64,000 nucleotides of DNA, from NCBI RefSeq assembly GCF_014023275.1, contig NZ_CP054697.1:1-64000 (forward strand), read 5' to 3'. The position numbers and the translations under genes were made by a program. How positions within the stretch are numbered: the first letter of the stretch is position 1; each line of letters begins with the position of its first letter. A model generated the notes under the pieces. It had not been told where the DNA came from and did not search any database. It saw only the letters and a list, made by a program, of their open reading frames with translations. This document shows positions 16,867 through 43,330 of this stretch, piece by piece. Origin of the DNA: Nostoc edaphicum CCNP1411. GTDB lineage: Bacteria > Cyanobacteriota > Cyanobacteriia > Cyanobacteriales > Nostocaceae.

Positions 16867-17004
16867 TTAACGTTGGCTTCTCAATATCTTGTTTTCATGT
16901 TTGGCGACATAACCCCCTTCTAAATGATTCTGCTCAACAGAAACCCCAATTACGTCAAAAAGCTTGTTAGCAACATCTAAGGAAATTGATTTAGACCAAG
17001 ACAT
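16867..17004 (-). CDS. Small hypothetical protein, 45 residues
   Basis: Reading the minus strand, ATG at 17004 opens a 45-residue frame beginning MSWSKSISLDVANKLF and ending ILRSQR. ATTGGAG lies 6 bases upstream, a proper ribosome binding site. It follows the frameshifted two-helix protein on the same strand and could be the last gene of the ATPase operon. It is soluble, has no Cys and is not recognised. It is too short for most gene callers; the ribosome binding site is the main support. Confidence 0.45.
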   Translation of the reverse strand: MSWSKSISLDVANKLFDVIGVSVEQNHLEGGYVAKHENKILRSQR

Positions 17005-17067
17005 CTTTACTCCAATGAATCTAAGAGTTCAGCTAAATAATTAAAACCCATCTTCACCTACTTCGAT

Positions 17068-17404
17068 TTATTCCCCTTTTTGAACCAACAATTTCCCAGA
17101 CACTCCAGCCGTAAAACCCAACCCAATCGCCGCCACAGTAACGCTGGGCTTGATAAATAACGTCGCAATTCCAATAACTGCAGCCCCAAAGACAGCCATA
17201 GCAGCAAACGATAATCAACTGATTTTTGGGTTTAGCCCTTTCGTCCGATATGGATTGATGGACTATGGCATAATTTTCAAGCTCATTGGTAATTTCTAGT
17301 AAAGAAGCGCCGTACTGTTTTTCTAAGCGTTCGATAGCCAGCCTGTCTGCCTTAACTGGGCTTATGGCTAATTTTTGCAATGCTGTGGTTAATTTATCAG
17401 TCAT
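17068..17404 (-). pseudogene. Two-helix membrane protein, frameshifted
   Basis: The minus-strand frame starts at ATG 17404 (MTDKLTTALQKLAISPVKAD) and reads about 65 residues to KPKNQLII. There one extra T (GTTT for GTT, near 17200) shifts it. The next frame continues with a very hydrophobic AAMAVFGAAVIGIATLFI and a second helix, ending LLVQKGE at 17068. Repaired, it is a protein of about 110 residues with a charged N-terminal domain and two transmembrane helices, like the 89-residue product at 21178-21447. The upstream region contains the 11-bp iterons at 17516-17559. Function unknown; either a true pseudogene or a one-base sequence error. Confidence 0.6.
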
Positions 17405-17515
17405 TTTTAAACTTCCTATGCTCCGACATTCTAGAAAATGTTTAAAAAAAATTAAAACTTGCTGGAGAGACAAAAACGACTCTATTTTTCAGAGGTACTT
17501 GGAGATGTGAGAATA

Positions 17516-17559
17516 CCGGAACTTGACCGGAACTCGACCGGAACTCAACCGGAACTCAA
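17516..17559. repeat. 11-bp iteron cluster B (4 copies)
   Basis: Four head-to-tail copies of CCGGAACTYRA (17516-17526, 17527-17537, 17538-17548, 17549-17559). On the minus strand this reads TTGAGTTCCGG, the same unit as cluster A at 22369-22444. The cluster lies between the ATPase stop and the start of the two-helix gene at 17404, so it is in that gene's upstream region. Confidence 0.85.
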
Positions 17560-17577
17560 CGGTCAGTGTCACGAATA

Positions 17578-19495
17578 TTACTGGTTAACGTTAATAACAC
17601 TAAAACCATCTTTTTCATTTCCGCACAATCGTTTAGTGTCAATCAATTGTGATAGGGCATTTCTCAAGTAAAGAACACTCTTTTTCTCTTCGCCCCACTT
17701 GCGGCTGTTTCTGATAGCAGCAAAAGAAGCTGGAGGATTAGCAGTAGCTGCAACGATCGCCACAATCTGTTCCAAATCAGCCTCAGAAATACTATTTTCT
17801 TCTACTTCCAGAAATTCCAGTTCTTGATAAGGCTTTGAAAAAATGGACTCCAGATGATTAACTGCATCTGATGGAGCAATTTTCTCCCCTCTAGGTATGA
17901 CTGCCTTTTCATGCTGTTGAACTAATTCTGGGAAGAATTGAAGTAATGTTCTGGCTGGATCTGGTTGCCCATTGCCTGGGTGCAAATGGGTCTTTAGCCA
18001 TTCGGGAATCATGCCCAGATTGCCACCACTAACAGGTTCTCCAAAGTTATTAGGGTTGGCTTTAAAATATTCTCCACTAGCGACATTCATTTTGCGTAGA
18101 CCACCAGCGCTAACCGCTTGAGCTACACAACCAATAAAGTTAACCGATTGCTTAAAGGTATCTGCCAGCCCAGCCGTAGCTTTACCGACTACGCTTGTCA
18201 GGTTAGAGCCATGCAAGACGATAATTAATGTACCACCAGACTTAGCGAAGCGAGAAAGTAAATATTGAATCGCCCAGGTGCGATCGCTCTCCTCCAACAA
18301 TGACAGCAACCGCATTGCCTCATCAATCACTAGCAGTAAATTTTTATGGGAGTAAGGTTCGCTTCCATCTAAACCCTTAAGAAATTTCAATAAATCACGA
18401 GCGACGAGTTGATCAGCCCCATCCGCATCTTGATCCGGGTACTTAAGAGCAGAGGTCAAGTTGCAGGCAAAGGGGTAAACGTCCACCCCGGCTGTAAAGT
18501 ATTGGGTGTTCAATCCGGGGTCAAGTGCAGTAGATAATGTTGCCAAGATTGCTGCTAAGGTTCCCTTGCCACCTCGCTGAGTACCAGCGATCGCAATGAC
18601 TTGAGAACTCATCATATCTTCTACTTGGAAACCACTTTTCGTTAAAGCAGCGATGAGTGCGTTTGCCCTATTAATTAGAGGAAGATTAATTAAAGTCTCT
18701 GGTACAACTTCCCCATTAGCTGATGCCTGTAACTCTGTAGGTCTAGAAAACTCCGCAGCTTGGTTCATCTTGCCAATATCTACCTGTGGCGATTGAAACT
18801 GCTTGATATCTATGGTCGGTGGTAACTGGACGTTTGCCTGTGCGATGGCACTTATCTCCGACCGATTCACTCGGCTGTCAATTGTCACATCCTGTAAATG
18901 AAGAGCCATGCTTTCATAAGTGGGTAGCTGACGACCCTTGAGCTTGCCAAACCAGCCAAACATCCAGCGATAAGCATAAAAGCGTTTTCCTGCTTCAACT
19001 TGTGTTAAATACTGACTAATATTTTCAAACTCAGCATGAAGAAAGGTGTACTCTTCTGCTGATTGTCGCTCTAGGAATTTAACAGTATTGGCAAGATGAT
19101 CCGCTTGATAATTGCTCCTCGCATCATAATCCCCGGCACGAGCTAGAGCGTCTATAAAGTTGCCACGTACAAAAGGCAAGGGGGCGATCTCCTTGGTTCT
19201 GTTGGAATGTTCGACAACAAACCATAACCACGCAGCACCACCGACTAAACCACCAACTAGTGCCAAAGGGTTAACCGCATAACAAACTGCTCCGATCCCA
19301 GAAGCCAACAAACCAAGTACACGAGTCATGTCTGCTTCATTCTCAGATGCCCGTGCCATTTCAAATAATCCATCTTTTCTCTCTTGCAGCCATTGGGCGA
19401 TATTGCCAGCTTCCAAGTGAGACAAGCTAGGATATGATTCGCGTAAATGTTCAGTTTCTTTAGTTGTGAATTTTTGGGATATTGTTACTTTGCAT
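17578..19495 (-). CDS. Membrane-associated P-loop ATPase, FtsK/HerA/VirD4-like plasmid protein
   Basis: The clean open frame runs from a TTG at 19425 and encodes 615 residues. The N-terminus has hydrophobic segments (about 37-70) that can span the membrane. Walker A is AGTQRGGKGT (about 280), Walker B LLLVIDEA (about 363), and a sensor-like TLIIVLHGSN follows. This resembles DNA-pumping or coupling ATPases, but the exact family is not recognised. The frame stays open upstream of 19425 without an ATG. An ATG at 19495 with GGGAGG 5 bases upstream reads MQSNNIPK and joins this frame if one A in a run of five is removed, so the true start is probably 19495 with a one-base indel near 19470. It is the last large gene of the operon starting at 22353. 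Confidence 0.72.
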
Positions 19496-19564
19496 AAATG
19501 CCTCCCTTGGTGAAACGTTGCCGCCCCTTTTTTACAGTGATTGGTTTCTTGGGCGGTTTCCGTT

Positions 19565-20281
19565 CTAATCCTTTGTCAACCGCCAAATAGCGAACCCAAT
19601 TTCACCCGCCATCATTGTGCCGATGTTAAACAAGATGCAACCCAAAATCATGAATGGGGCTGTAAATTCAAATGGGTTACGAGCGGCAAAGGTGGTGACA
19701 ATATCGAACACCCAAACCGCAATCACAACTAGCCCAGCGCTAGAGCGATCGCGTATACCTGCGGTTTTGTAGTCCGCCCAGAGTTGGCCTACTAAGTCAA
19801 TCTTGCCACTAGGCTTGGTTTCAAGGTCATAAACCATGTGGTCTTGAAGTTCCCGTCGTGCTGAATCTGGGTTTTTACCGCGTAGGGCGTGGGCTTCGAT
19901 TACCTGAACGCCTACAGAAATTATGAATGCAAGGTAAAAAAACGGGTTGAACAGTGCAAACGGCACATTTAGCCAATTCCAAGTCGGCTCAAACCAGGGT
20001 AAAACAGGGGGCCCAGTAAAGATTAATTGCCAAGTTGAATCAGCACTAATCATGGAACCGCCGATAAATAAAATCCCGCCAACTAACGCGCGACCTGCAC
20101 CTCCATTAGCAACAAACTGATTGACTATAGCGGCGGCTGCTCTAATGGGTAAACCGACAATCATCACTACAGCCTTGGCACAAAAATCGATTATTTCACC
20201 AAGCGATCGCTTCTTACCTTTAGGCTTACTATCGCTGTTGCCAGTACTATTAGTTTCCGCACTTGATGAACTATTAGCCAT
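19565..20281 (-). CDS. Polytopic membrane protein of the ATPase operon
   Basis: 238 residues, not recognised. A Ser/Asn-rich soluble N-terminus and a KPKGKKRS patch precede about five hydrophobic segments: AVVMIVGLPIRAAAAIV, RALVGGILFIGGSMI, NVPFALFNPFFYLAFIISVG, then, after a charged loop (ALRGKNPDSARRELQDHM), SAGLVVIAVWVFDIVTTF and FMILGCILFNIGTMMAG. It may be the inner-membrane platform of the ATPase encoded next. Its ATG overlaps the stop of the upstream gene as TAATG, so translation is coupled. Nothing similar to conjugation VirB proteins is obvious. Confidence 0.75.
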   Translation of the reverse strand: MANSSSSAETNSTGNSDSKPKGKKRSLGEIIDFCAKAVVMIVGLPIRAAAAIVNQFVANGGAGRALVGGILFIGGSMISADSTWQLIFTGPPVLPWFEPTWNWLNVPFALFNPFFYLAFIISVGVQVIEAHALRGKNPDSARRELQDHMVYDLETKPSGKIDLVGQLWADYKTAGIRDRSSAGLVVIAVWVFDIVTTFAARNPFEFTAPFMILGCILFNIGTMMAGEIGFAIWRLTKD

Positions 20282-20691
20282 TACTTTTTCCTCACTGGTT
20301 TGATATTTTGAACGCTTTTACAAATCCCTTTGGCTTTGTATTTCCACTTCCAAATTCCTTCTTCAATTCGTCCAATACACCTGCCCGTCGCATCAAAAAC
20401 ATCAATAATCTCATCATCAAGATATAGGGTTGTGTCTGGTCTGGGATTGCGTTTAGCGCTATCAAAGTAATTGGTAATTCTCAGTTTCCGAGTTGTGGGC
20501 ATCACTCCCGCCTCATATAGAGCATCACTGGTTTTTGCCCGTTCTTCTATGCGGGAACGCTCTAATTCTTCTGTGGCTTTTAGCCGTTGAAGTTCTGCAT
20601 AAGCCCCCAACTTGGGTACTAAGGGGATGATTACAGGCAATATGCAAATGCCAACACCAGCCAAAGCTAAGTACAGTTGTTTCTTATACAT
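20281..20691 (-). CDS. Single-pass membrane protein with coiled coil
   Basis: 136 residues, not recognised. An N-terminal transmembrane helix (LALAGVGICILPVIIPLVP) is followed by a charged helical stretch (ELQRLKATEELERSRIEERA) and a beta-rich C-terminus (DTTLYLDDEIIDVFDATGRC). The C-terminal part looks like a small periplasmic or cytoplasmic binding domain. It is the first gene after the TGAAAC repeat array and is coupled to the polytopic protein by overlapping stop and start codons. The array occupies its upstream region and could hold its promoter. Confidence 0.72.
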   Translation of the reverse strand: MYKKQLYLALAGVGICILPVIIPLVPKLGAYAELQRLKATEELERSRIEERAKTSDALYEAGVMPTTRKLRITNYFDSAKRNPRPDTTLYLDDEIIDVFDATGRCIGRIEEGIWKWKYKAKGICKSVQNIKPVRKK

Positions 20692-20734
20692 GAGACTACT
20701 GTGTTATAGCGCGTTCTTACTACAAATTTTTCCC

Positions 20735-21170
20735 CTGTTTCACACATAAAATGAGGCGTTTCATGTTTCACGATGCTGAAACATTGATGAAACCGTTGAA
20801 ACAGTTTCGTGAAACAGCTGGATGAAACACTACCCTTCATAACGCTTTTCGAGCAAGGAATTAGCTAGTGTTTCATGTTTCACGTTTCACGTTTCACGCT
20901 GGGGGAATGCTGTTTCATGCTGTTTCACGCCCTGAAACACTGATGAAACCGTTGAAACTGTTTCATGAAACAGTGCTGTGAAACAGCTTCGTGAAACAAT
21001 CTCGCCCATAAAGGCTTTCGATCAAGGAATTAGCTGGTGTTTCATGTTTCACGTTTGATGTTTCACGCTGGGGGAATGCTGTTTCACGGTGTTTCACGCC
21101 CTGAAACACTGATGAAACCGTTGAAACTGTTTCATGAAACAGTTCTGTGAAACAGCTTTATGAAACACTC
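20735..21170. repeat. Dense TGAAAC/GTTTCA repeat array, centromere- or origin-like
   Basis: About 33 copies of TGAAAC or its complement GTTTCA lie in 435 bases, many as GTTTCACGTTTCACGTTTCA or CTGTTTCATGAAACAG. The array is built from a larger unit starting CTGAAACAYTGATGAAACCG at 20776, 20932 and 21101, so the period is 156 then 169 bases; the third copy is partial. Each unit has a block of direct copies, a block of inverted copies and a unique part (CAAGGAATTAGCT). No protein is encoded. Many sites in both orientations suit a DNA-binding protein that spreads, as in a plasmid centromere, or an origin. Confidence 0.85.
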
Positions 21171-21177
21171 CCGCCCA

Positions 21178-21447
21178 TCACTCTTGCCTCGATGCCCGTC
21201 CCAGAAATGTCAATCCTGCACCAACAAGTAATCCCAAGGGAATGAACATCCCACTACCAATTAATCCAGTAGCAACAACGCTACCAACGAGATATGCACT
21301 GCCACCTAAAGCGCCAACAACTGAAGTAGCAAACAATCCCGTACTCAGAATATCCATAACTTGATTTTTCCTTTGATGAGTTAATAGTTCTTGAAGTAAT
21401 CGGATTTCAGCAACAGTAGCAACAGTTTCATTTTGGATTTGTAACAA
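21178..21447 (-). CDS. Small protein with two membrane helices
   Basis: 89 residues from a TTG at 21447, not recognised. A charged N-terminus (TVAEIRLLQELLTHQRKNQV) precedes two hydrophobic helices, LFATSVVGALGGSAYLVGSV and a Gly-rich second one (GSGMFIPLGLLVGAGLTF). The reading frame is open further upstream and overlaps the end of the 191-residue gene with plausible protein sequence (DPILEAYKTVAALLQ), so the real start may lie inside that gene. The layout resembles the repaired product at 17068-17404. It ends only 8 bases before the TGAAAC array. Confidence 0.6.
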   Translation of the reverse strand: MLQIQNETVATVAEIRLLQELLTHQRKNQVMDILSTGLFATSVVGALGGSAYLVGSVVATGLIGSGMFIPLGLLVGAGLTFLGRASRQE

Positions 21448-21470
21448 TGCTGCTACTGTTTTATAAGCTT

Positions 21471-22046
21471 CTAAAATCGGATCTGTGTCCCCATTGAACT
21501 GACTCTCTCCCGCAATAAATTGAGTCGCGCTTTGAGTTGTTCCTTTTTTTGGATCGACTTCCCCAGCCTTGTTGAGGCTTCTTCTGCCAAATTAATCAAA
21601 CTCTGATCTATCTCGGTAATCTGGTTATCGACTTCCAACATGGATTGTTCAGCAAAGGCATCCAACACAGTCCCTTTGGCTCCAATCAAGGATTCCATGA
21701 ACAATAAAGCTCCTGTAACACCAGTTGATGCACCCAGAATCTTAGATTGCTCATTTTGAACGGCTATAGCACCAGAAATAGTCTCTTTATCAGCCGCAGT
21801 CAACTTGTATGAGGCTTGTTGAATTGCCTCATCAGCTTTGGTGATTGTGGCTTCGGGTATATCTGCTACAGGTGATTGTTGAGGCTGTAATCTCTCACTA
21901 TTGGTAATATCTTGAAATCTAGCTAAAATCTCCTCTGGAACTAGTGAATCTACCGTCCATTTTTGCTCTGGATATTGACGGCGTAGTTCATCAACTACTT
22001 TTCCTGGTACTTTGTTGAGAGCTTGTGCGAATTCTTTAACAATCAT
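21471..22046 (-). CDS. Helical protein with central hydrophobic segment, ATPase operon
   Basis: 191 residues, not recognised. The N-terminal 60 residues look like a small helical domain (FAQALNKVPGKVVDELRRQY). A linker rich in Q and P follows, then a long helix with a short hydrophobic stretch (ILGASTGVTGALLFMESLI), and finally a coiled coil (VDNQITEIDQSLINLAEEAS). TAGGAGCC precedes the ATG at 22046, the same leader sequence as the upstream gene's AGGAGCC. Together with neighbours it forms a compact minus-strand operon. A structural or scaffold role with the ATPase is inferred from context only. Confidence 0.72.
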   Translation of the reverse strand: MIVKEFAQALNKVPGKVVDELRRQYPEQKWTVDSLVPEEILARFQDITNSERLQPQQSPVADIPEATITKADEAIQQASYKLTAADKETISGAIAVQNEQSKILGASTGVTGALLFMESLIGAKGTVLDAFAEQSMLEVDNQITEIDQSLINLAEEASTRLGKSIQKKEQLKARLNLLRERVSSMGTQIRF

Positions 22047-22086
22047 GATTTAGGCTCCTAAAAACTTTTCGGGGTGATTTTTTAAT

Positions 22087-22353
22087 TCAATTGCCACCTT
22101 TTTTCAAAGAACCTTTGGCTAAAACGTAACTTCTAATTCTTTGAAGCACAGGTAAATGCCAGTTTGTCAACTTCGCTCGTCCGTTTAGCCCTCCATTATC
22201 TTCGTCCCGAAAATCCTCAAATTCTGGCAAGTACAAAGAAGCTAAGTCTAGATACTTTTGGAACTGTCTAATTCCAACTGATGGCTCCAATTTCTTGGCT
22301 GCCTCCTCTCGTGTTAACAATTGTTCAACTACACAGCTTCCTTGAATTAGCAA
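22087..22353 (-). CDS. Small MerR-like or winged-helix protein, first gene of ATPase operon
   Basis: 88 residues from a TTG at 22353. The segment LLTREEAAKKLEPSVGIRQF looks like a helix-turn-helix start of a DNA-binding domain, followed by a helix near YLPEFEDFRDE and a basic C-terminus (YVLAKGSLKKGG). I cannot name the family. AGGAG at about 22364 is the ribosome binding site; immediately upstream are the seven 11-bp iterons of cluster A and then a terminator. First position, small size and the adjoining iterons make it a candidate autoregulator that binds those repeats, which is inference. Confidence 0.6.
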   Translation of the reverse strand: MLIQGSCVVEQLLTREEAAKKLEPSVGIRQFQKYLDLASLYLPEFEDFRDEDNGGLNGRAKLTNWHLPVLQRIRSYVLAKGSLKKGGN

Positions 22354-22368
22354 TGGTTTCGGCTCCTA

Positions 22369-22444
22369 GAGTTCCGATTGAGTTCCGACTGAGTTCCGAC
22401 TGAGTTCCGATTGAATTCCGGTTGAGTTCCGATTGAATTCCGGT
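22369..22444. repeat. 11-bp iteron cluster A (7 copies)
   Basis: Seven head-to-tail copies of GARTTCCGRYT: 22369-22379, 22380-22390, 22391-22401, 22402-22412, 22413-22423, 22424-22434 and 22435-22445 (the last differs in its final base). The same unit in the opposite orientation makes cluster B at 17516-17559. It lies directly upstream of the operon's first gene, between a terminator and the ribosome binding site. Confidence 0.9.
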
Positions 22445-22500: not shown

Positions 22501-22525
22501 ACTTAGCGTCAGGCTGACGCTAAGT
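22501..22525. promoter_or_regulatory. Perfect 25-bp palindrome
   Basis: ACTTAGCGTCAG and CTGACGCTAAGT are perfect inverted repeats around a single central G. This is unlike a terminator, which lies next to it at 22463-22494, because it has no loop or T run and overlaps the 3' end of the small gene. An operator for a dimeric protein or a recombinase site is possible. Confidence 0.6.
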
Positions 22526-22732
22526 ACCTGATAATAATTTATGGATAGCTCCAAAATGATTAAGTACCTGTGGTTTTGGCTGTTGATACCTTGTACTACT
22601 TTCGTCAGCTAACCAATGACTTATTGTTTGTTCAGGATAATCACTAAGCCTATGCATCAGGTATATGGAAGCATTGTGAATTATTTTGAATTCTCTTGGA
22701 TGCATTGGTTTAATACCAATGTTTTGTACCAT
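22520..22732 (-). CDS. Small hypothetical protein, 70 residues
   Basis: 70 residues starting MVQNIGIKPMHPREFKIIHN and ending HKLLSGT. GTAGGAGCG just upstream of the ATG at 22732 is a good ribosome binding site. The middle (LMHRLSDYPEQTISHWLAD) looks helical with conserved-looking aromatic residues. No domain is recognised. It is on the minus strand and ends at the palindrome and terminator, so it appears to be a separate unit from the ATPase operon. A GCGATCGC octamer lies at its start. Confidence 0.5.
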   Translation of the reverse strand: MVQNIGIKPMHPREFKIIHNASIYLMHRLSDYPEQTISHWLADESSTRYQQPKPQVLNHFGAIHKLLSGT

Positions 22733-22770: not shown

Positions 22771-24599
22771 AATTTCTCACAAACAATAAAAAATCGATTT
22801 ATATGGACTGATATAAGACATTTTTTCGATACATCACCCATTCAAATTGACGTAGATAAATAAACTAAGTATAACTAGCACTTTTTAAGCTAAAACAATT
22901 ACTTTGATTATTTTTAATACTGAAACAAAAATGCTCTGTTCATAAAATTAAGCATTCCAAAACAAGGCTTGAATAAAACCAAACCCAAAACATCATTAAT
23001 TAGAGATTCAGGAAATACAAATTGCTTAAAATTAAGCGGTATTAGTCAGAAATTTTAAGCATCTGTAAGCAGCAGCAAAGAGATGTTTATACGGACAAGA
23101 GCTTGTAATCGCAATTAAAATTCGCCGCGAGCTTACAGTAATTAAGGCTCCTAACTTCAATAATTTTGTCCGAATAGTTCCAACTTGAGCATTTTGTAGT
23201 TCGGTTTTAGCTAAACATTGTTGACGCAATGCATTCATCAAAATATAAGCAAGAGAAGAGAACCACAAACGCAACTGATTTCCCGCAAATGTGTGGGTAC
23301 TTGTTCTATCACTAAAAAGTTCTAGTTGTTGTTCTTTAAAGCGATTTTCCATCTCCCCGCGCTTACAGTATTTTTGTCTATAAAGTTGACTAGGAGGTAC
23401 TTTATTGGTAGGAAGACTTGTAACAACAAAACGAATATTAGTCCCCTTTGCTCCATATTCAACCTTACAAACAACACGACGGCTACGACTCCAAGATTCA
23501 CGAGTCTGATAGTCTAACGACTTATGCCAAATTGAGTTATCAATCAGGTCACAAGCAAGTTCGGAAAGTTGTTCATCTGGTTTAAATACAGTTTCTAAGA
23601 ATGAAACTACTGTTGATAATTTCTGCTCAAACTCAAGCTTCGCTCTATTTTGAGTCGTCGTAGCCATTTGAATTAAACGACTGTTTCGCGCCAATCCAAA
23701 AACGTAGTCAACTCCAGGGAGCGACTCACACCATGTCATTATATCCTCTCTGGAATAGGCACTATCTCCTCGTACTAAAATCTCAACATTCTGCCACTGT
23801 TGACGTATTTGTTTAATGACTCTCTGCAACTCTTCTAACGCCCCAAATGCTGGGTCTACATTAGAAGGTCTAAGTTTGGCTGCTAACAAATGTTTTCCAC
23901 AGAAAATATAAAGTGGAGCATAACAGTATCCTCCGTAATAAGTATTGAAGAAAACTTGCTCCTGATTGCCGTGTACTAAATCATCGGTTACATCTAAGTC
24001 CAAAATAATTTTTCGTGGTTCTTTTAAGTAAGATTTTAAAAATATACTTACAAATAGGCTTTCAATTTCTGCTGAAGAATGCCCAATTTTATGGTAACGA
24101 CTATCTGCTCCTTGTTCTACATCTTCAGGGCAATGTTCCAGCCTATTTAATGTACTCTTACCTGCTAATGTTGCAGGTTCATCCTCTACTCCAATTCTTT
24201 TTCCTAATGCTAAAGCAAACATCGGATCATGACGTAATTCTTCATGGTCATTTAAGTCTTCGTATCCCATGATCAACCCGTATATCCGTTGCTTGATTAA
24301 GTTTTCTATTGAATGGTCAATCCGATAAGGCTTTCGGTAATCTTGGAAACACTGTGCAAACTGTGATGTGATTTGCAGTTTTCTGTCTATTTCAGCAATT
24401 AAGCTTAAACCTGCATCGGATGTTACCTGTCCACCCTGGAAATTAACTACAACTGGCGGCGATTTTGGTTGCTCAAATTTGAACTGTTTTGGGAGCGATC
24501 GCGTTGCTGGTTGAATCATGTTTTAAAACTGCTGAAATGCCTGCCATATATACATCTTAGCAGTTTTTATACCCATTTATTTACGAGTTGGTGAGAAAT
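22771..24599 (-). mobile_element. IS1380-type insertion sequence (approximate ends)
   Basis: The element carries one transposase gene (23032-24519). Candidate terminal inverted repeats are AATTTCTCACAAAC at 22771-22784 and GTTGGTGAGAAAT at 24587-24599, sharing ATTTCTCAC plus AAC. The repeats are short and imperfect and I could not find a target duplication, so the ends are approximate and could lie 5-10 bases further out. Confidence 0.55.
23032..24519 (-). CDS. IS1380-family transposase
   Basis: 495 residues, apparently intact. The N-terminal VVVNFQGGQVTSDAGLSLIA is the hallmark of IS1380 transposases, followed by the DDE catalytic core: LDLDVTDDLVHG near residue 173 carries the first Asp pair, ILVRGDSAYSRE near 248 the second, and the region KRGEMENRFKEQQLELF near 388 the Glu. 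The C-terminal part (NQLRLWFSSLAYILMNALRQ) is typical as well. ATG at 24519 is the natural start; GCGATCGC sits nearby. The gene is on the minus strand, the same as the flanking operons, and lies between them. Confidence 0.93.
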   Translation of the reverse strand: MIQPATRSLPKQFKFEQPKSPPVVVNFQGGQVTSDAGLSLIAEIDRKLQITSQFAQCFQDYRKPYRIDHSIENLIKQRIYGLIMGYEDLNDHEELRHDPMFALALGKRIGVEDEPATLAGKSTLNRLEHCPEDVEQGADSRYHKIGHSSAEIESLFVSIFLKSYLKEPRKIILDLDVTDDLVHGNQEQVFFNTYYGGYCYAPLYIFCGKHLLAAKLRPSNVDPAFGALEELQRVIKQIRQQWQNVEILVRGDSAYSREDIMTWCESLPGVDYVFGLARNSRLIQMATTTQNRAKLEFEQKLSTVVSFLETVFKPDEQLSELACDLIDNSIWHKSLDYQTRESWSRSRRVVCKVEYGAKGTNIRFVVTSLPTNKVPPSQLYRQKYCKRGEMENRFKEQQLELFSDRTSTHTFAGNQLRLWFSSLAYILMNALRQQCLAKTELQNAQVGTIRTKLLKLGALITVSSRRILIAITSSCPYKHLFAAAYRCLKFLTNTA

Positions 24600-24651: not shown

Positions 24652-24879
24652 CTAGACTTTTCCTATTTGTTGTTTGATCATCTGCTCCACGTCATCAATT
24701 GCGTTCACTATTTCTCCTAAAACATTGAAAGCATCGTTTAATACCACATCATTTGATGTAGAAAAGTACTCGGACGATTGAAGCCTGCGATAATCCTTAC
24801 TACTCCCAACAAGCCGCAATGTATGTTGACAACCTTGCAAAATAGTCCGAATCTCTGATGTAGTTAACTTGATTTCCAT
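24652..24879 (-). CDS. Small hypothetical protein, last gene of Ycf46 operon
   Basis: 75 residues, acidic and helical (MEIKLTTSEIRTILQGC at the start, DDVEQMIKQQIGKV at the end), not recognised. GGGAGGG 8 bases before ATG 24879 is an excellent ribosome binding site, which supports a real gene. It follows the IS-interrupted two-helix gene by 14 bases, so it was part of the same transcript before the insertion. With no membrane or Cys features its role cannot be guessed. Confidence 0.65.
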   Translation of the reverse strand: MEIKLTTSEIRTILQGCQHTLRLVGSSKDYRRLQSSEYFSTSNDVVLNDAFNVLGEIVNAIDDVEQMIKQQIGKV

Positions 24880-27075: not shown

Positions 27076-27636
27076 TTACAAATGTCGCCAGAAGTTCTTA
27101 CTGATAGTCTTGAGACTGACTACCTTGGGTTCTGCTGTCGCTTCAGAGGCATGACCAACAGCCACCGCAGCGACTTGTGGTGCGGGTGTGGTTAACAAAG
27201 AATTAAGCAATCTCATTTGATAATCAACATCTTCTACTGAGCGATATACTCTGTATGGTTCAATTTGCATACCCAAAGGTGTTGGGACAATCAAAAGATA
27301 TTGATTTAGGGCATTGATATAAGCAACTGAAAAATTTCTCTGCTCTACATAAGGACGGATAATCTCTAGTAATTCAATCGCTCTGTTGATTTCAGAAACT
27401 TCACAATTACTGTCGATTTGTGACTGACTTCTTCTGTAGCCTTTCATCATCTTTTCGGCTACTAGATTGTTGAATTTACTTACCGCTCTCTGATGATTGC
27501 CTAATGTGTGGACTTTGGTTTGCGCCTTATAACCGACTCTGCCCCACTGCACTGTTAAATTACCATCTTCAACTTTTGCGCTCCAGAACTTGTTGCTGTT
27601 ATGAATTGCGTCTACAAAGACTAAATAGGTTTCCAT
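27076..27636 (-). CDS. WGR-domain protein
   Basis: 186 residues. The N-terminal 75 residues form a WGR domain: YLVFVDAIHNSNKFWSAKVE, then LTVQWGRVGYKAQTKVHTLG, with the eponymous W-G-R near residue 31. WGR domains bind nucleic acids or proteins in PARP enzymes and in bacterial DNA-related proteins. Residues 85-150 carry a helical region (INRAIELLEIIRPYVEQRNF), and the last part has a Pro/Ala-rich linker. No catalytic domain follows. Next to a Ycf46-like ATPase it may mark DNA or protein substrates, which is inference. Confidence 0.85.
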   Translation of the reverse strand: METYLVFVDAIHNSNKFWSAKVEDGNLTVQWGRVGYKAQTKVHTLGNHQRAVSKFNNLVAEKMMKGYRRSQSQIDSNCEVSEINRAIELLEIIRPYVEQRNFSVAYINALNQYLLIVPTPLGMQIEPYRVYRSVEDVDYQMRLLNSLLTTPAPQVAAVAVGHASEATAEPKVVSLKTISKNFWRHL

Positions 27637-27649
27637 GTTTCTTACCCTG

Positions 27650-27997
27650 TCAACTCACCACTTGGCGGGCGTTGCCCCATCGAATTTGATGCTGTAAAGC
27701 TTCAAGTATCGTTTCTGCTTCGTCTGCTGTTAGTCCCTTCAACTGTAAGCAGATATTTTTTAAAACCTCTGGAATACCATTCCAAAGAAATCTTTCAAAA
27801 TGTCCATCTGTCAAAGCTTCTGTTAGAGAATAATCTTCAGGACTACATATTCGCTGCATAAAAACATATTGGGACAAAGTTGTACGCAGCAAAAGCTTAG
27901 TTTCTCTATCCAGTTTTTCGAGATAAACTCCATAATTTTGAACAAATTGGTTAATTCGTTCAGTTTGTCCGTAGTAAGTCACTAAATCTGTTGTCAT
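27650..27997 (-). CDS. Hypothetical protein, 115 residues
   Basis: 115 residues, not recognised. It is all-helical and polar (YYGQTERINQFVQNYGVYLE at the start, GLTADEAETILEALQHQIRW at the end), with one segment YVFMQRICSPEDYS in the middle. GAAGGTG is placed 8 bases before ATG 27997 and supports the start. It precedes the WGR gene by 13 bases and follows the AAA ATPase after a strong hairpin of purine and pyrimidine tracts, so it may be transcribed less than the upstream genes or from its own promoter. Confidence 0.65.
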   Translation of the reverse strand: MTTDLVTYYGQTERINQFVQNYGVYLEKLDRETKLLLRTTLSQYVFMQRICSPEDYSLTEALTDGHFERFLWNGIPEVLKNICLQLKGLTADEAETILEALQHQIRWGNARQVVS

Positions 27998-28105
27998 CTT
28001 TTTTTCACCTTCTCTTTAACTGATTGTTGGATTTGAAAAAGCGATAAGCCTGACGGCATAGCTACGCTTACCGCCCCCATAGAATCAGGAGGCAATCGCC
28101 CTCAA

Positions 28106-28192
28106 GAAGGGTAAGGGGAAAAGGGGAAGGGGGAAAGAGGGTTTTCTTTATTCCTTTCCCCTTTCCCCTTTACCCTTTACCCTTTCCCCAAG
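28106..28192. terminator. Large purine/pyrimidine hairpin after AAA ATPase gene
   Basis: A G/A-rich tract (28109-28140, GGGTAAGGGGAAAAGGGG and following) faces a C/T-rich tract (28150-28190, CCTTTCCCCTTTCCCCTTTACCC and so on) across TTTTCTTTATT. The arms are complementary over about 25-30 pairs and made of short imperfect repeats. It begins just past the AAA ATPase stop in the direction of transcription, so a terminator or attenuator role is likely. Such tracts are common between genes in Nostoc genomes. Confidence 0.55.
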
Positions 28193-28200
28193 ATTATTTC

Positions 28201-29823
28201 TCAGTTCATATTCCGAAACTTAGCAGCACGCAAAGACTGAGTTTTCGCTGCAACCACAGGACTACTAGCCCGTCGTGCGGTGGATGCCCATGCTTGCATT
28301 CTTTCAACTGCCGCCGCATCCTGAATCGCAAGCGGGGTAATGGTTTGACGGCAGGTTTCGAGGTCAGCAAGTGTTACCTGCTGCGGTCTATCCTCATCGA
28401 ATGCCAGCAGAGCAGCTTCTGAAGCAAGGGTTTCCAGTTCTGCCCCTGAAAATTTCGCGGTATTGGCAGCGATCGCTTCGAGGTACTCCGATTCCAGATG
28501 AATGCCAAAGCGTTGTAGATGAATCCCTAGAATCTGTACACGCTCCGGTTCTGTGGGTAGATCAACAAAGAAAGATTCGTCAAATCTTCCCTTCCTCTTG
28601 AATTCACTTGGTAGTGCTGATGGGTCATTGCAGGTTGCAACTATAAACACCCCAGCAGTGCATTCAGCCATGAACGTAAGCAAAGTACCCAAGATGCGTT
28701 GAGAAACACCGCTTGTATCGCCCTGACCTGAAAGTGCTTTTTCGACCTCATCAATAAACAAGACACAAGGTGCGATCGCCTCGGCAGTTTTCAAAGCACG
28801 TCTGACATTCCCCTCAGACTCACCTACCAGACTGCCCAAAAGGGACGCAATATCGAGTTGCAGAAGTGGTAGATTGAGTATGCTAGCGATGTTTTTGGCA
28901 CAGTGGGATTTTCCTGTTCCGGGTGGGCCAGCCAGCAACACCCCTTTGGGTTGGGGTAAGCTAAGACTTCGCGCCTCTTGTGTGAATAGTCGCCGCCGCC
29001 TCATCAGCCACTCACGCAGTAGATCCAAACCGCCAAAAGGAATGGTAGCTGGTTTACCCAACTCGATACCCATTTGAGAGAGTAGCCGAGTTTTGTACTC
29101 GACAGCTTTGGGGATAAAATCAGCGTCAACGACGACACCATGATTAGTTAAGTTTTCTTTGACTGTTAACCGAAGGAAATCACTAATTTCTTCTAAAGTT
29201 AAACCTAACGCTGCACGAGAAAGAGTTTCAAATTCAGCATTTTCTAGCGTAATAGTGAAAGTCAATTCTTGCTCTCTAGCAGACTGTTGTAGGTCATGCA
29301 AATAAGAAGTGATATGCTCAAGTATTTGGTCAATACTAGGTAAAGGAACTTCGCAATAAGGAATTAATCTGACTAAGGATTCGTGTAATTGTATGTTCTG
29401 ACCCAACAAGACAATGCGTTTATCTGTGGGTTTTAACCTGTGGTAAAGGTTTTTAACTTTGGATAAAATCTCCCATGATAATTGGGGTGAGTTCTTAGCA
29501 ATAAAGGGGTGAATATCTCCGAGGATAAATACACCATTTCCGCTAAAGTTAGCAATGTAGTCGAATACAAATAGTAGTGGATCAGCGTGTGGTGGTTTTT
29601 TGTACTCTGCAACGGGCTTAAACACCAATCCCCCATCTGCTGCGATTAAACATTGTTCTAAGGTTGATACTCCCAGATTCCAGAAGAAAACTGGACATGA
29701 GAGCTTATTGTTAGCTTCAGCAGTCAACCACTGAATAATCGTCGCTTCATCAGGAGACAGAACATCAAGTGCTGCGATCGGGATTTGTGAATCGAGCGTG
29801 GAGAGAAGATTTGAGAGGTTCAT
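28201..29823 (-). CDS. ycf46: Ycf46-like AAA ATPase
   Basis: 540 residues. The N-terminal 250 residues form the non-catalytic Ycf46-type region (VFFWNLGVSTLEQCL, then FVFDYIANFSG and DKRIVLLGQNIQLHESLVRL). The AAA domain starts near residue 268 with GLDLLREWLMRRR. Walker A GPPGTGKS is near 299, Walker B VLFIDEVEK near 355, the sensor ATCND near 395, and the arginine-finger region FKRKGRFDESF near 409. Ycf46 proteins occur throughout cyanobacteria and in algal plastids; the Synechocystis homolog is associated with inorganic-carbon use, but the biochemical task is unclear. Here it is plasmid-type and sits with DUF2997 and DUF1257 genes, a recurring neighbour set. Its ATG overlaps the stop of the preceding small frame by four bases. 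Confidence 0.88.
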   Translation of the reverse strand: MNLSNLLSTLDSQIPIAALDVLSPDEATIIQWLTAEANNKLSCPVFFWNLGVSTLEQCLIAADGGLVFKPVAEYKKPPHADPLLFVFDYIANFSGNGVFILGDIHPFIAKNSPQLSWEILSKVKNLYHRLKPTDKRIVLLGQNIQLHESLVRLIPYCEVPLPSIDQILEHITSYLHDLQQSAREQELTFTITLENAEFETLSRAALGLTLEEISDFLRLTVKENLTNHGVVVDADFIPKAVEYKTRLLSQMGIELGKPATIPFGGLDLLREWLMRRRRLFTQEARSLSLPQPKGVLLAGPPGTGKSHCAKNIASILNLPLLQLDIASLLGSLVGESEGNVRRALKTAEAIAPCVLFIDEVEKALSGQGDTSGVSQRILGTLLTFMAECTAGVFIVATCNDPSALPSEFKRKGRFDESFFVDLPTEPERVQILGIHLQRFGIHLESEYLEAIAANTAKFSGAELETLASEAALLAFDEDRPQQVTLADLETCRQTITPLAIQDAAAVERMQAWASTARRASSPVVAAKTQSLRAAKFRNMN

Positions 29824-40703: not shown

Positions 40704-41631
40704 ATGTCTACAAATATACAATGGTGTGACGAAACCTGGAATGTAATTGTTGGCTGTTCACGGGTTTCTGGAAGTCCTGGCTGTGCGCGATGCTATGCAG
40801 CGAAAGCTGCCAAATCCCCACGACTTCAACAATTCCCCCAGTATCAAACTGTTAGTAATTGGGATGGCACAGTTGAATTTGTCAAATCTCAACTTATTAA
40901 ACCATTGTCTTGGAAAAAGCCGAAAAGAATTTTTGTATGCTCAATGGCTGATTTGTTTCACGCCAATGTCCCTGATGAATGGATTCATCAAGTAATGGCT
41001 GTTGTTGCTCTTTCACCTCAGCACACTTTTCAAATCTTGACTAAGCGACCAGAAAGAATGAAGGAGTACTTTAGTCAACAATCACTATGGGGCAAGTGGT
41101 ATGAAGCAGCCAAGGAAAATCTTTGGGACGCTGTTAGTGAGAAATTTGGAGAATTAATTAATCTTCAACAATATTTTATTGACCAACCATTCCCCTTACC
41201 AAATGTGTGGTTAGGAACCTCCACTGAGAATCAACAGATGGCGAACGAACGCATTCCAATTCTCTTGCAAATTCCCTGTTCTGTTCGGTTTTTATCTTGT
41301 GAGCCACTGCTTGAAGAAATCGATTTGAGGCAAGGAGGTGCAATTCAAAAATTAATCAGTGATTCCTACGAATGGGAATTAGTAAATGAAGATATCCAAT
41401 GGATTGTTGTAGGGGGTGAGTCTGGACCCAAATTCCAGACCATGCCACATCGAATGGATTGAGTCTATTGTCCAACAATGCCTACAATCCCAAACACCTG
41501 TGTTTGTGAAGCAGTTGGGGGCTAATGCAATATTTGGGGGACAGCGATTTAAAACCCGCGATCGTAAGGGTGGCGAAATCAAAGAGTTTCCCCTTCAACT
41601 GCAATTACAAGAATTTCCGTTTGGTACGTGA
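40704..41631 (+). pseudogene. DUF5131 (Gp37/Gp68-like) protein, frameshifted
   Basis: ATG 40704 with AAGAGG upstream starts MSTNIQWCDETWNVIVGCSR followed by SPGCARCYAAK, the Cys-rich start typical of DUF5131/phage Gp37-Gp68 proteins. The frame runs through DLFHANVPDEWIHQVMAVVA, LTKRPERMKEYF and VWLGTSTENQQMANERIPIL to VVGGESGPKF, and there leaves the expected path. The continuation (SRPCHIEWIESIVQQCL then TPVFVKQLGANAIFGGQRFK) is in the next frame to 41631. A one-base indel near 41435 in CCCAAATTCC would restore it. The stop TGA overlaps a GTG of the next frame. Confidence 0.75.
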
Positions 41632-41643
41632 ATCAAGCAAAAT

Positions 41644-41669
41644 CCCCCACTTTTAGCGCAGTGTGGGGG
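41644..41669. terminator. GC-rich hairpin after DUF5131 gene
   Basis: CCCCCAC (41644-41650) pairs with GTGTGGGGG (41661-41669) around TTTTAGCGCA, giving a 7-pair GC-rich stem with one bulge 13 bases after the DUF5131 stop. No T run follows; it may terminate or block readthrough to the next start at 41709. Confidence 0.4.
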
Positions 41670-42123
41670 AAAGGATCAACTATAAATTTTGACAAATGGT
41701 GGTTGTATATGAGTGTAACATCAAAAATACAGAGCGATAGCTTCAGCGACGGCAGAAAGAAACGCCATATATACATCGATAGTAAGTTGGATGATTTACC
41801 ACTAACAATGGAGGCATTTCGGGTTTACTGCCACCTGTGCCGCCGTGCCGGTTGTGATAATAACGCCTTCCCTTCCTATAAATCTATAGGTGAAGCTTGT
41901 TTCCGTGGTTCTTTCCCGAACTCACCGACTGAAACTTTACGGCGAAAAGCGATGGCAGCAGTCGATGAGCTTGTTTGTTGGAATCTGATTACTAAAGCCA
42001 CAAAAAAAAAGTTAGACGGTTCGCCATCATCAAATCAATACAGACTCACAGATATTGACGATTGGTTTACCGAAGCAACTAAACAATCTAGTTTGACTAG
42101 AGGGAAAGCGAAGACCAGTAGCG

Positions 42124-42262
42124 GGGGAACACTAGGGGTAGTGTTGGGGGAACACCAGGGTGGTGATGGGGGAACACTAGGGGTAGTGATGGGGGAACAC
42201 CAGGGTAGTGATGGGGGAACACTAGGGGTAGTGATGGGGGAACACCAGGGTAGTGCTGGGGG
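42124..42262 (+). repeat. 45-bp tandem repeat within the replication-type gene
   Basis: About three tandem copies of GGGGGAACACTAGGGGTAGT followed by a variable base, TGGGGGAACACCAGGGT and GGTGAT or AGTGAT. They encode GGTLGVV.GEHQG.. repeats. Each unit itself holds two related halves (GGGGGAACACTAGG and GGGGGAACACCAGG). A flexible Gly-rich linker is likely. Confidence 0.85.
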
Positions 42263-42315
42263 GACACCCAAAGTATATCCAACTAAAGATTATCCAATTG
42301 AAGTCCATCCACTTA

Positions 42316-43330
42316 CAGCACCTACGGCTGTTATGAGGTACAGTAGCAGCAACTAGCAAACCAGTTTCTTAAATGTTGAGGATTTATTAAGTCGAGTGCA
42401 ACTGAGATTAGTTTATCAACCATTTCTGTTGTAGTTGGAGCAAAATTGCGTAAAAAAGATTTAAGTTGTGACCACCATAATTCAATTGGATTAAAATCGG
42501 GGGAGTATGAGGATAAACAAATAACTTTCGCACCTACAGCTTCAATCATTGGCACAATTGAATCTAGTTTATGTGCGGATAAATTATCCATCACCACTAC
42601 TGCTCCTGACCATAAATGTGGTACTAAAAACTTCTCAATAAATAATTCAAATGCAATGCCATCCATTGAACCATTCATTGTCATTAATGCAACTACTTTT
42701 TTAAGACTAATTGCTCCAATTACTGTAACTTTTGAGCCTCTATAGAAGGGGTTAAGAGAGTAAGCTCTTGTTCCCATTTGTGAACGGGCATGAGTCCTCG
42801 CTAACCCAAGTAGGACACCAGTTTCATCCAAAAATACTAAATTTTCTGGCTCTATATTTTTGACCTTTTCCCAATAATCTAATCTTAAATGCAGGACTCT
42901 CTCAGTAAGAGCTTGGGTACTCCGCTTCGTTTTTTTTTACGATTTAATCCTAATTTCTGTAACGCCCGACACATTGCACTTTGACCTACCCAATTACCAG
43001 TCTTGTCTGCAAATAATTCACACAACTCTATCAATGTTGCATCTGGATATGATTCAACTAATTCTCTCAACTCTATGTCAGCATTTGTTAGATGACTAAA
43101 TTGTGGCTTTCCTCGCGGCTTGGATTGTAAATTTCCTTCAAGTTTTTGTTGTTTTACAAGCTTTTGAACTAAACTTTTTGAGACGGAAAATATGTTAGCT
43201 ACTTTTCTGATTGAGATATTTTTTTGAAGATGTGCTGCAACTATTTTTTCTCGAAGATCGACAGAGTATGACTTCATTTAGAGGTATTTATATTTTAATT
43301 TATTGTACCTCATAACAGACGCAAGTGCTG
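42316..43330 (-). mobile_element. IS630-type element inserted in replication-type gene (1015 bp)
   Basis: The inverted repeats begin CAGCAC and include CTGTTATGAGGTACA at the left (42328-42342) and TGTACCTCATAACAG at the right (43304-43318). The two ends match at 28 of 31 positions when read inward from TACAGCAC. TA flanks both sides (42314-42315 and 43331-43332). It has a split transposase on the minus strand. Confidence 0.9.
42331..43277 (-). CDS. IS630-family transposase in two frames
   Basis: The first frame (ATG 43277, MKSYSVDLREKIVAAHLQKN) is the HTH part (SIRKVANIFSVSKSLVQKLV), ending just after RKKK. The second (to 42331) carries LVFLDETGVLLGLAR with Asp-Glu, VVMDNLSAHK with the second Asp, and YSPDFNPIELWWSQLKSFLR with the Glu. 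The two join by reading one additional A at a nine-A run, as expected of programmed -1 frameshifting or transcript slippage. Otherwise intact. Confidence 0.85.

Follow-up and report, generated by a model that had tools for sequence, protein, structure and literature searches.

A conserved membrane ATPase core with exchangeable front modules on cyanobacterial plasmids

The described systems closest to the one reported here join plasmid partition, transfer, and membranes in different ways. According to the respective papers, TraD, a coupling ATPase, is a binding partner of the R1 actin ParM, and transfer is raised by Par proteins (PMC4949242); stb of R388 (stbABC) balances stability and transfer (PMC3098194); partition without a nucleoside triphosphatase (NTPase) has been suggested to borrow a host motor (PMC5016525); TubY, a partition protein with a helix-turn-helix (HTH) and a coiled coil, binds the centromere complex and the membrane (PMC7762940); TraB and Spd proteins transfer and spread plasmids in Streptomyces mycelia (PMC4170104); and FcmB/FcmC of Nostoc punctiforme, with a chromosomal cyanobacterial actin that derives from a plasmid partition system, shapes the cell (PMC12645912). 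Here we describe a minus-strand operon in the initial 64 kb (the window, meaning the whole 64,000-bp stretch analyzed) of contig NZ_CP054697.1 of Nostoc edaphicum CCNP1411. This contig, C5, is a 264,855-bp replicon (∼265 kb) in an 8.3-Mb genome of six contigs, among which C6 has 7.73 Mb. The back half of the operon is a three-gene core, encoding a single-pass membrane protein (oneTM), a four- to five-pass membrane protein (fiveTM), and a membrane-anchored P-loop ATPase, that is conserved on cyanobacterial plasmids; the genes in front of it vary. The set matches no described system that we found and is apparently undescribed.

A conserved core behind varying fronts

Searched against proteins, the ATPase yielded 254 relatives, some with a generic AAA_22 domain, and among the 120 listed none had a name beyond "ATP-binding protein." In the plasmid collection, 52 records carry the ATPase and 51 the multi-pass protein; because features under core matches are almost all named "hypothetical protein" in the listed plasmid rows, dozens of plasmids would gain an annotation. 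The first 65 loci compared (own genome included; numbered with the prefix L) were selected via the ATPase, and many of their contigs are cut; 64 have the ATPase, 52 fiveTM, and 48 oneTM, the latter two upstream of the ATPase and on its strand. In variant A, the window's form, the exceptions are L019, without a single-pass match, and L043, without a single-pass or multi-pass match. The small genes likewise recur beside the ATPase in other genomes, a check that the initial annotation had proposed. An ATPase profile matched 10 of 386 cyanobacterial genomes (own included), 9 of them in the window's family. Core-bearing genera in the plasmid collection number eight (Nostoc, Tolypothrix, Microchaete, Calothrix, Aulosira, Trichormus, Scytonema, and Allocoleopsis), all of which we take to be filamentous.

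Two main groups of front genes precede the core: hth, cc, and twoTM (with TMdown downstream of the ATPase), as in the window, or a series encoding proteins of 394, 64, 75, and 86 aa. In the second group, the leading gene is actin-like: Pfam ALP_N scores above its cut-off in L004 and L101, the records of L074, L077, and L079 are annotated ParM/StbA, and the 394-aa sub-type (ParM394), which has no Pfam hit, is tied to ParM via L078, which matches both models. Because most relatives begin with a ParM-type actin gene, the operon is tied to plasmid segregation. The initial annotation missed this start of most related operons; the window holds the ParM-less form, with no actin-like ATPase gene in the operon, and a search without a positive control did not find the ParM394 type in the window's genome.

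Sequence reached at least 4 kb upstream of oneTM in 45 loci; of these, 29 had a ParM front, 11 had hth, none had both, and 5 at first had neither. Eight further loci, fetched via the multi-pass protein, comprised one with ParM (L122), four with hth (L118 to L121), and three with another HTH-like/coiled-coil pair (L116, L117, and L123, the last a distant match). Of the five remaining loci, L075 itself carries this second pair, and BLAST with the pairs of L075, L116, L117, and L123 located both genes in L060 and L062 and the coiled-coil gene only in L063 and L100; we rejected the view that five of the 45 lack a front. With those five counted, 53 of 53 loci have a recognizable front, segregation-like or HTH-like, on the strand of the core (30 ParM, 15 hth-cc, 8 second pair). 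Where the actin front is gone, the core stays. Within the window's type of front, hth recurs with the core in 15 fetched loci and in L118 to L121, cc adjoins hth wherever both genes are readable (L043 has cc without an hth match), and twoTM recurs next to cc.

Front type goes along with replicon size. Across 23 replicons (complete records plus contigs taken as whole, a part picked by size, some as small and some as large, while the fronts were still unseen), ParM fronts lie on 13 to 93 kb (n = 13) and HTH-type fronts on 39 to 447 kb (n = 10), nine of the latter on replicons of >134 kb (135 to 447 kb); the difference has a Mann-Whitney p of 2e-4, computed on related plasmids that are not independent. 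A large divergent upstream gene matches one of nine seeds in 28 of 32 ParM loci, nine of the 28 being the seed loci themselves. These replication seeds were assigned by Pfam (L003, L005), by annotation (L074, L077, L078, L079), or by position only (L004, L008, L076), the six replication-type seeds falling under DUF3854, DUF5906, DUF3987, and VapE. The four ParM loci without a seed match are cut by the record end (L006, L073) or chromosomal (L098, L099). In L111 and L115, ParM stands without such an ATPase directly downstream.

Two further arrangements were seen. On C6, L101:7130-12901 contains a chromosomal ParM, several small genes, and single-pass, multi-pass, and membrane ATPase genes in a layout that matches the window's relatives; by model, only its ParM and ATPase C-domain match them. 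L060 (9935-12873), L062, and L063 are hybrids in which a diverged core has replaced a window-type core, retaining ∼80 to 105 codons of the old ATPase and TMdown.

The ATPase motor and the front repeats

The initial annotation called the ATPase FtsK/HerA-like. In favor of this, the motor model (pLDDT 86.5) found FtsK motors as its best three Foldseek chains (E, 7.8e-5 to 6.9e-4), with TrwB and TcpA also among the structural matches; against it, RecA, Rho, and FlaH rows tie with FtsK within 1 Z in fold comparison, and FtsK_SpoIIIE, DUF87, and T4SS-DNA_transf (T4SS, type IV secretion system) gave no match among 25 of 26 families listed for 30 ATPase-family members. The modeled motor is RecA-like in fold and leans toward FtsK by Foldseek. 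Fold searches with the full-length model (pLDDT 67.9) pointed clearly to no class, and PDB sequence searches and a viral fold library returned nothing useful. Motors of parallel ParM operons gave FtsK_SpoIIIE or HerA matches below the cut-off (L074, 1.7e-3; L112, 1.9e-3; L113, 7.1e-4; L114, 1.6e-3), and generic AAA models score at least as high on them as the FtsK/HerA models.

The ATPase keeps its membrane part while the motor is swapped. Its N-terminal domain, a membrane hairpin followed by a conserved helical part, is common to proteins whose motors are unmatched by BLAST: L008 shares 63% identity with L060 over residues 23 to 257 only and with L098 over residues 14 to 238 only. A second scaffold family is seen in L102 and L114, from ParM operons with other small genes, which are 80% identical over ∼272 N-terminal residues and then divergent. 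The C-terminal domain is common across scaffolds (L101, 1e-13; L102, 1e-11, against the C-domain model of the window's family). A further P-loop protein, possibly membrane anchored, is encoded in the ParM operon of Oscillatoria pOSCIL6304.02. An ATPase tree of 40 rows, five of them on long branches, places all 15 variant-A rows in one supported group of 16 (98/97); the sixteenth is L021, whose label does not denote a front, since its contig starts at the ATPase and the ParM-like hit lies 6 kb downstream of it. On supported branches, at least four changes are needed for either ParM label, "other ParM" including L021.

The internal repeat array of the window holds 25 of the 37 TGAAACA words in the 64 kb, where ∼18 are expected in the whole window and no other 450 bp has more than 2. 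Across the 8.3-Mb genome, 19 of 31 close TGAAACA pairs fall in the array; with the reversed pattern as control, the count was 8. Among ParM394 rows, 15 of 17 have 3 to 8 copies in front of the actin gene (L049 has 1, L078 has 0), and the 18 other-ParM rows (one of which, L021, is not a front) have 0 or 1. Among loci whose ATPases are 83 to 87% identical to the window's, 13 with ParM394 have 3 to 7 copies and 5 with other ParM have 0 or 1, without overlap. Because copies track ParM type among near-identical ATPases, the repeats belong to the front and not to the motor. We rejected a reading of the array by the ATPase C-terminal domain, by analogy with TraB and its TRS repeats, since the array comes and goes with ParM type while the ATPase is nearly constant. 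The array probably takes the parC position of an actin front and is predicted to be centromere-like, of the kind that goes with ParM394 and RHH64. Between twoTM and oneTM, 14 to 31 copies are present in the window and in each of the 15 variant-A loci that were scored; the array is not enriched in L118 to L120. RHH64, the cognate small partner, was not found in the window's genome at E 0.1 (64-aa query, no positive control). The window's array is perhaps an inherited, enlarged, and now orphan centromere, read in trans or part of a promoter region.

A second kind of repeat, the 11-bp GGAACTC iterons, tracks hth. GGAAYTC occurs 5 to 8 times within 250 bp of hth in 13 of 15 variant-A loci (L018 has 1; L038, cut at the contig end, has 0), and the iteron word is kept in L119, whose hth is 74% identical, and missing in L118 and L120 (63 to 64%). 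The iterons upstream of the first front gene are a probable binding site of the hth product. At least four copies of the word also stand between the ATPase and TMdown in L011, L020, L060, L063, and L090. Separately, ACCCGGAA, an 8-mer present five times in each case, occurs directly downstream of the ATPase, in the 500 bp that follow it, in two Scytonema loci, L004 and L046.

The operon in its replicon

Operon features are collected in Table 1. The eight minus-strand genes of the initial annotation, their tight spacing and TAATG overlap, the iterons at both sites, and the internal array are all present, and the operon reaches further upstream than was proposed, to two additional genes that have relatives in the same place. 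Homologues of the 70-aa gene lie directly upstream of hth in L007, L009, L011 to L017, L020, L045, L058, and L064, and a relative of the 75-aa gene lies upstream of hth in L007. Some of the proposed protein features were refined: the HTH-like and coiled-coil genes are real and recurring, their folds being assigned by eye with no profile support; the protein described as five-helix is a multi-pass membrane protein with four helices in a crude hydropathy scan; and the proposed two-helix gene at 17068 encodes such a protein in relatives but in the window is only the 3′ piece of a frame-broken gene of ∼111 codons. Both the middle of TMdown and the 5′ end of the ATPase gene (start in relatives, ∼19495) are frame shifted by a single-base length difference relative to three to four relatives. 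Intact copies of both genes occur elsewhere, and the shifts may reflect decay or assembly error. In L118 to L120, TMdown sits between twoTM and oneTM. Relatives of the small soluble protein are found in L012, L013, L015, L016, L020, L056, L057, and L060.

Table 1 Features of the operon in the window
Feature	Coordinates	Strand	Remarks
75-aa protein gene	24652..24879	-	Relative of the third gene in ParM-type operons (hidden Markov model E = 2.5e-21)
70-aa protein gene	22520..22732	-	Conserved upstream of hth in the window's variant
11-bp iterons, GGAACTC core	22369..22442	.	6.7 copies (TRF); upstream of first front gene
hth	22087..22353	-	Small HTH-like protein, first front gene; HTH by eye only
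cc	21471..22046	-	191-aa coiled-coil-like protein, second front gene; coiled coil by eye
twoTM	21178..21447	-	Small protein with hydrophobic stretch; hairpin by eye, one helix (51-69) in hydropathy scan
TGAAACA array	20736..21167	.	25 repeats; tandem period ∼169 bp, 2.3 copies
oneTM	20281..20691	-	136-aa single-pass membrane protein, core gene 1; one helix, 7-25
fiveTM	19565..20281	-	238-aa multi-pass membrane protein, core gene 2; TAATG overlap with oneTM
ATPase gene	17578..19425	-	Membrane-hairpin domain at N-terminus, P-loop motor of RecA-like fold (GTQRGGKGT), winged-helix-like domain at C-terminus
11-bp iteron, inverted	17515..17557	.	3.9 copies (TRF); upstream of two-helix gene
TMdown	17068..17404	-	Member of hth block, small membrane protein with two helices; broken reading frame in window
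Small soluble protein gene	16867..17004	-	Downstream of TMdown; relatives 81-94% identical

Profile libraries gave nothing convincing, in line with the initial annotation, which did not recognize the set. Nine window products had no Pfam match over the curated cut-off; five window products and two ATPase relatives had no NCBIfam match over the cut-off and reached a best E of 0.012 in PHROGs and 0.011 in PADLOC. A match of cc to NF008986 (E 2e-4, 21 bits versus a cut-off of 292) was judged to be chance, like other weak family matches. The ATPase matched no well-described conjugation or phage protein in these libraries, and the operon is not described in the literature searched, which covered few subscription papers.

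The initial annotation had remarked on the lack of VirB, Tra, and ParA/ParB genes. For Tra and ParA/ParB, this is true of the operon but not of the whole replicon: on C5, ParA-type sequences are matched at 208082-208630 and 118718-119119, and part of a T4SS coupling protein is matched at 177695-178327. PF03432 relaxase matches lie on C4 (two), C1, and C3; a profile search found none on C5, where MOBF and MOBV relaxases were not looked for, and the VirB4-type family PF03135 had no match anywhere in the genome. The link to a relaxase and a mating channel that marks a T4SS coupling-protein gene was not found for the window's replicon.

Other sequences nearby or on the same replicon may be recorded here. 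A broken ParM-like frame followed by a 99-aa gene (C5:205426-205704; L108:8916-9620) lies near one ParA-type gene of C5. Within the window, a gene that is transposase-like by sequence (23032-24519) splits the 75-aa gene from the remaining operon, and a WGR-domain protein and an AAA+ ATPase are encoded upstream of the operon (27076-29823), with similarly annotated genes upstream in L007. A 22/45-bp tandem repeat (42123-42268; 45-bp unit, 3.2 copies, 96% matches) lies inside the reading frame 41628-42356.

Candidate function and relation to known systems

We lean, at slightly better than even confidence, toward a system in which an exchangeable plasmid-catching front is joined to a fixed membrane complex whose RecA-like, FtsK-leaning motor acts on plasmid DNA. 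The front half would bind and position the plasmid, either by a ParM actin, its small partner, and centromere-like repeats, mostly on small plasmids, or by an HTH-like/coiled-coil pair that has repeats of its own and is found mostly on large replicons, the window's among them. The back half (oneTM, fiveTM, and the hairpin-anchored ATPase) would then receive the plasmid at the membrane, where the motor would probably form a ring and would dock or pump plasmid DNA at the membrane or septum. Of the segregation, translocation, or mating system first proposed, the segregation part has gained a link through the ParM-led relatives, while DNA translocation is something that we infer. A bolder version would make these operons a plasmid-machine class of their own in filamentous cyanobacteria, with a constant three-protein membrane complex, interchangeable motor heads and catching modules (of the actin kind on small plasmids and of the NTPase-less HTH/coiled-coil kind on large plasmids), and movement of DNA at membranes and across filament septa; we consider this unlikely as stated.

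The membrane ATPase might instead stand in for a coupling protein in mobilization, taking a relaxosome as VirD4 or TcpA does and passing the plasmid to the mating channel of another plasmid. Consistent with this, of 22 ParM loci with at least 9 kb downstream, 12 (L003 included) show a same-strand downstream match to the L003 MOBP relaxase (a thirteenth hit, to MOBF, was dropped because that seed also matches helicases), 32 of 51 core-bearing plasmids are typed mobilizable and 9 conjugative, figures that lack a fair comparison set of plasmids without the core in these genera, and TrwB and TcpA figure among the structural matches of the motor. Yet the other ten plasmids, both Allocoleopsis plasmids among them, are typed non-mobilizable, a search confined to MOBP and MOBF seeds gave downstream matches in none of the 12 variant-A loci that have 9 kb downstream, the window's contig gave no PF03432 match, and no coupling-protein model matched among the families listed. 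A tie of the core to mobilization was rejected on the grounds that the relaxase varies in type or is absent while the core stays, together with the 0 of 12 variant-A loci, and we regard this explanation, too, as improbable. A still smaller chance goes to a core that is no DNA machine at all and rides in a par operon as a membrane transporter, exclusion, or defense device. Exchange of the motor domains, a generic RecA-like fold class, and the generic AAA scores of the parallel-operon motors would all suit such a device, and DNA binding by the core is our inference; on the other side stand the PADLOC result for seven proteins, the segregation-like or HTH-like front that the core follows in every locus with sufficient upstream sequence, and the recurrence of weak FtsK_SpoIIIE/HerA matches, albeit below the cut-off, in four parallel ParM operons.

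Least probable of those we weighed is a spreading system, in which the motor would pass plasmid copies through the septa of the filament as Streptomyces TraB and Spd do. The layout of an FtsK-class motor, several small membrane proteins, and short DNA repeats resembles that of TraB/Spd (PMC4170104), and replacement of ParM leaves the core in place. In the plasmid collection, all core-bearing genera are filamentous (8 of 8), while the hits of a replication gene from one core-bearing plasmid extend to Synechococcus (17 records), Synechocystis (7), and Gloeothece (5), a weak control in that only 4 of 118 records match over 80% of the gene and many rows seen match the primase part alone. This distribution fits a function between cells, but it fits plain descent equally, and one relative, P0136, labeled as from a "Chroococcales" metagenome bin (label unchecked), stands against strict restriction, the Chroococcales being an order of unicellular cyanobacteria. 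Many of the plasmids carry relaxases, and the TGAAACA repeats track the front rather than the ATPase, unlike the TRS repeats read by TraB.

Returning to the preferred reading of a catching front and a DNA-directed membrane motor, its parts have separate counterparts among known systems. Most ParM394-type relatives share with the type II ParM/ParR/parC locus of R1 an actin-like gene, a small downstream partner, and upstream repeats, whereas the window has centromere-like TGAAACA repeats without ParM and, as far as our search went, without RHH64. We know of no type II locus that continues into a core of membrane proteins and a P-loop ATPase. With the FtsK/HerA/VirD4 motors (FtsK, TrwB, TcpA, EccC) the ATPase shares its best Foldseek matches, to FtsK, and an N-terminal membrane anchor, and its winged-helix-like C-terminus may be likened to the winged-helix FtsK gamma domain; it differs in having no significant sequence match, H and not Q after strand 4, and two further conserved membrane proteins beside it. 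A chromosomal actin-like gene with a downstream 159-aa gene on C6 (L110:7975-9617) is, from place and size, likely the FcmB/FcmC pair, and it has no membrane ATPase core beside it.

Likeness to the remaining systems is drawn from their descriptions in the papers cited and, for the first two, not from sequence. Like NTPase-less ("type IV") partition by R388 StbA and pSK1 Par, the window has a DNA-binding protein (putatively the hth product) and a cis site (iterons) without an NTPase (PMC3098194, PMC5016525), but it goes beyond them in having a coiled-coil protein as well as a membrane motor. TubY of type III systems also combines an HTH and a coiled coil, in one protein rather than two, and pairs with the tubulin-like TubZ (PMC7762940). 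In Streptomyces, likewise a multicellular bacterium, the plasmid-borne TraB/Spd set unites an FtsK-class membrane ATPase with a number of small membrane proteins, but TraB alone suffices for transfer and reads 8-bp repeats (PMC4170104), whereas in the cyanobacterial operon the repeats go with the front half. Should the core act on DNA, a single operon would link partition to membrane docking and transfer and would offer an entry into the persistence of low-copy plasmids in multicellular cyanobacteria. Descriptions of plasmid partition usually distinguish three or four closed types; the core reported here is shared by actin-type and NTPase-less HTH-type fronts.

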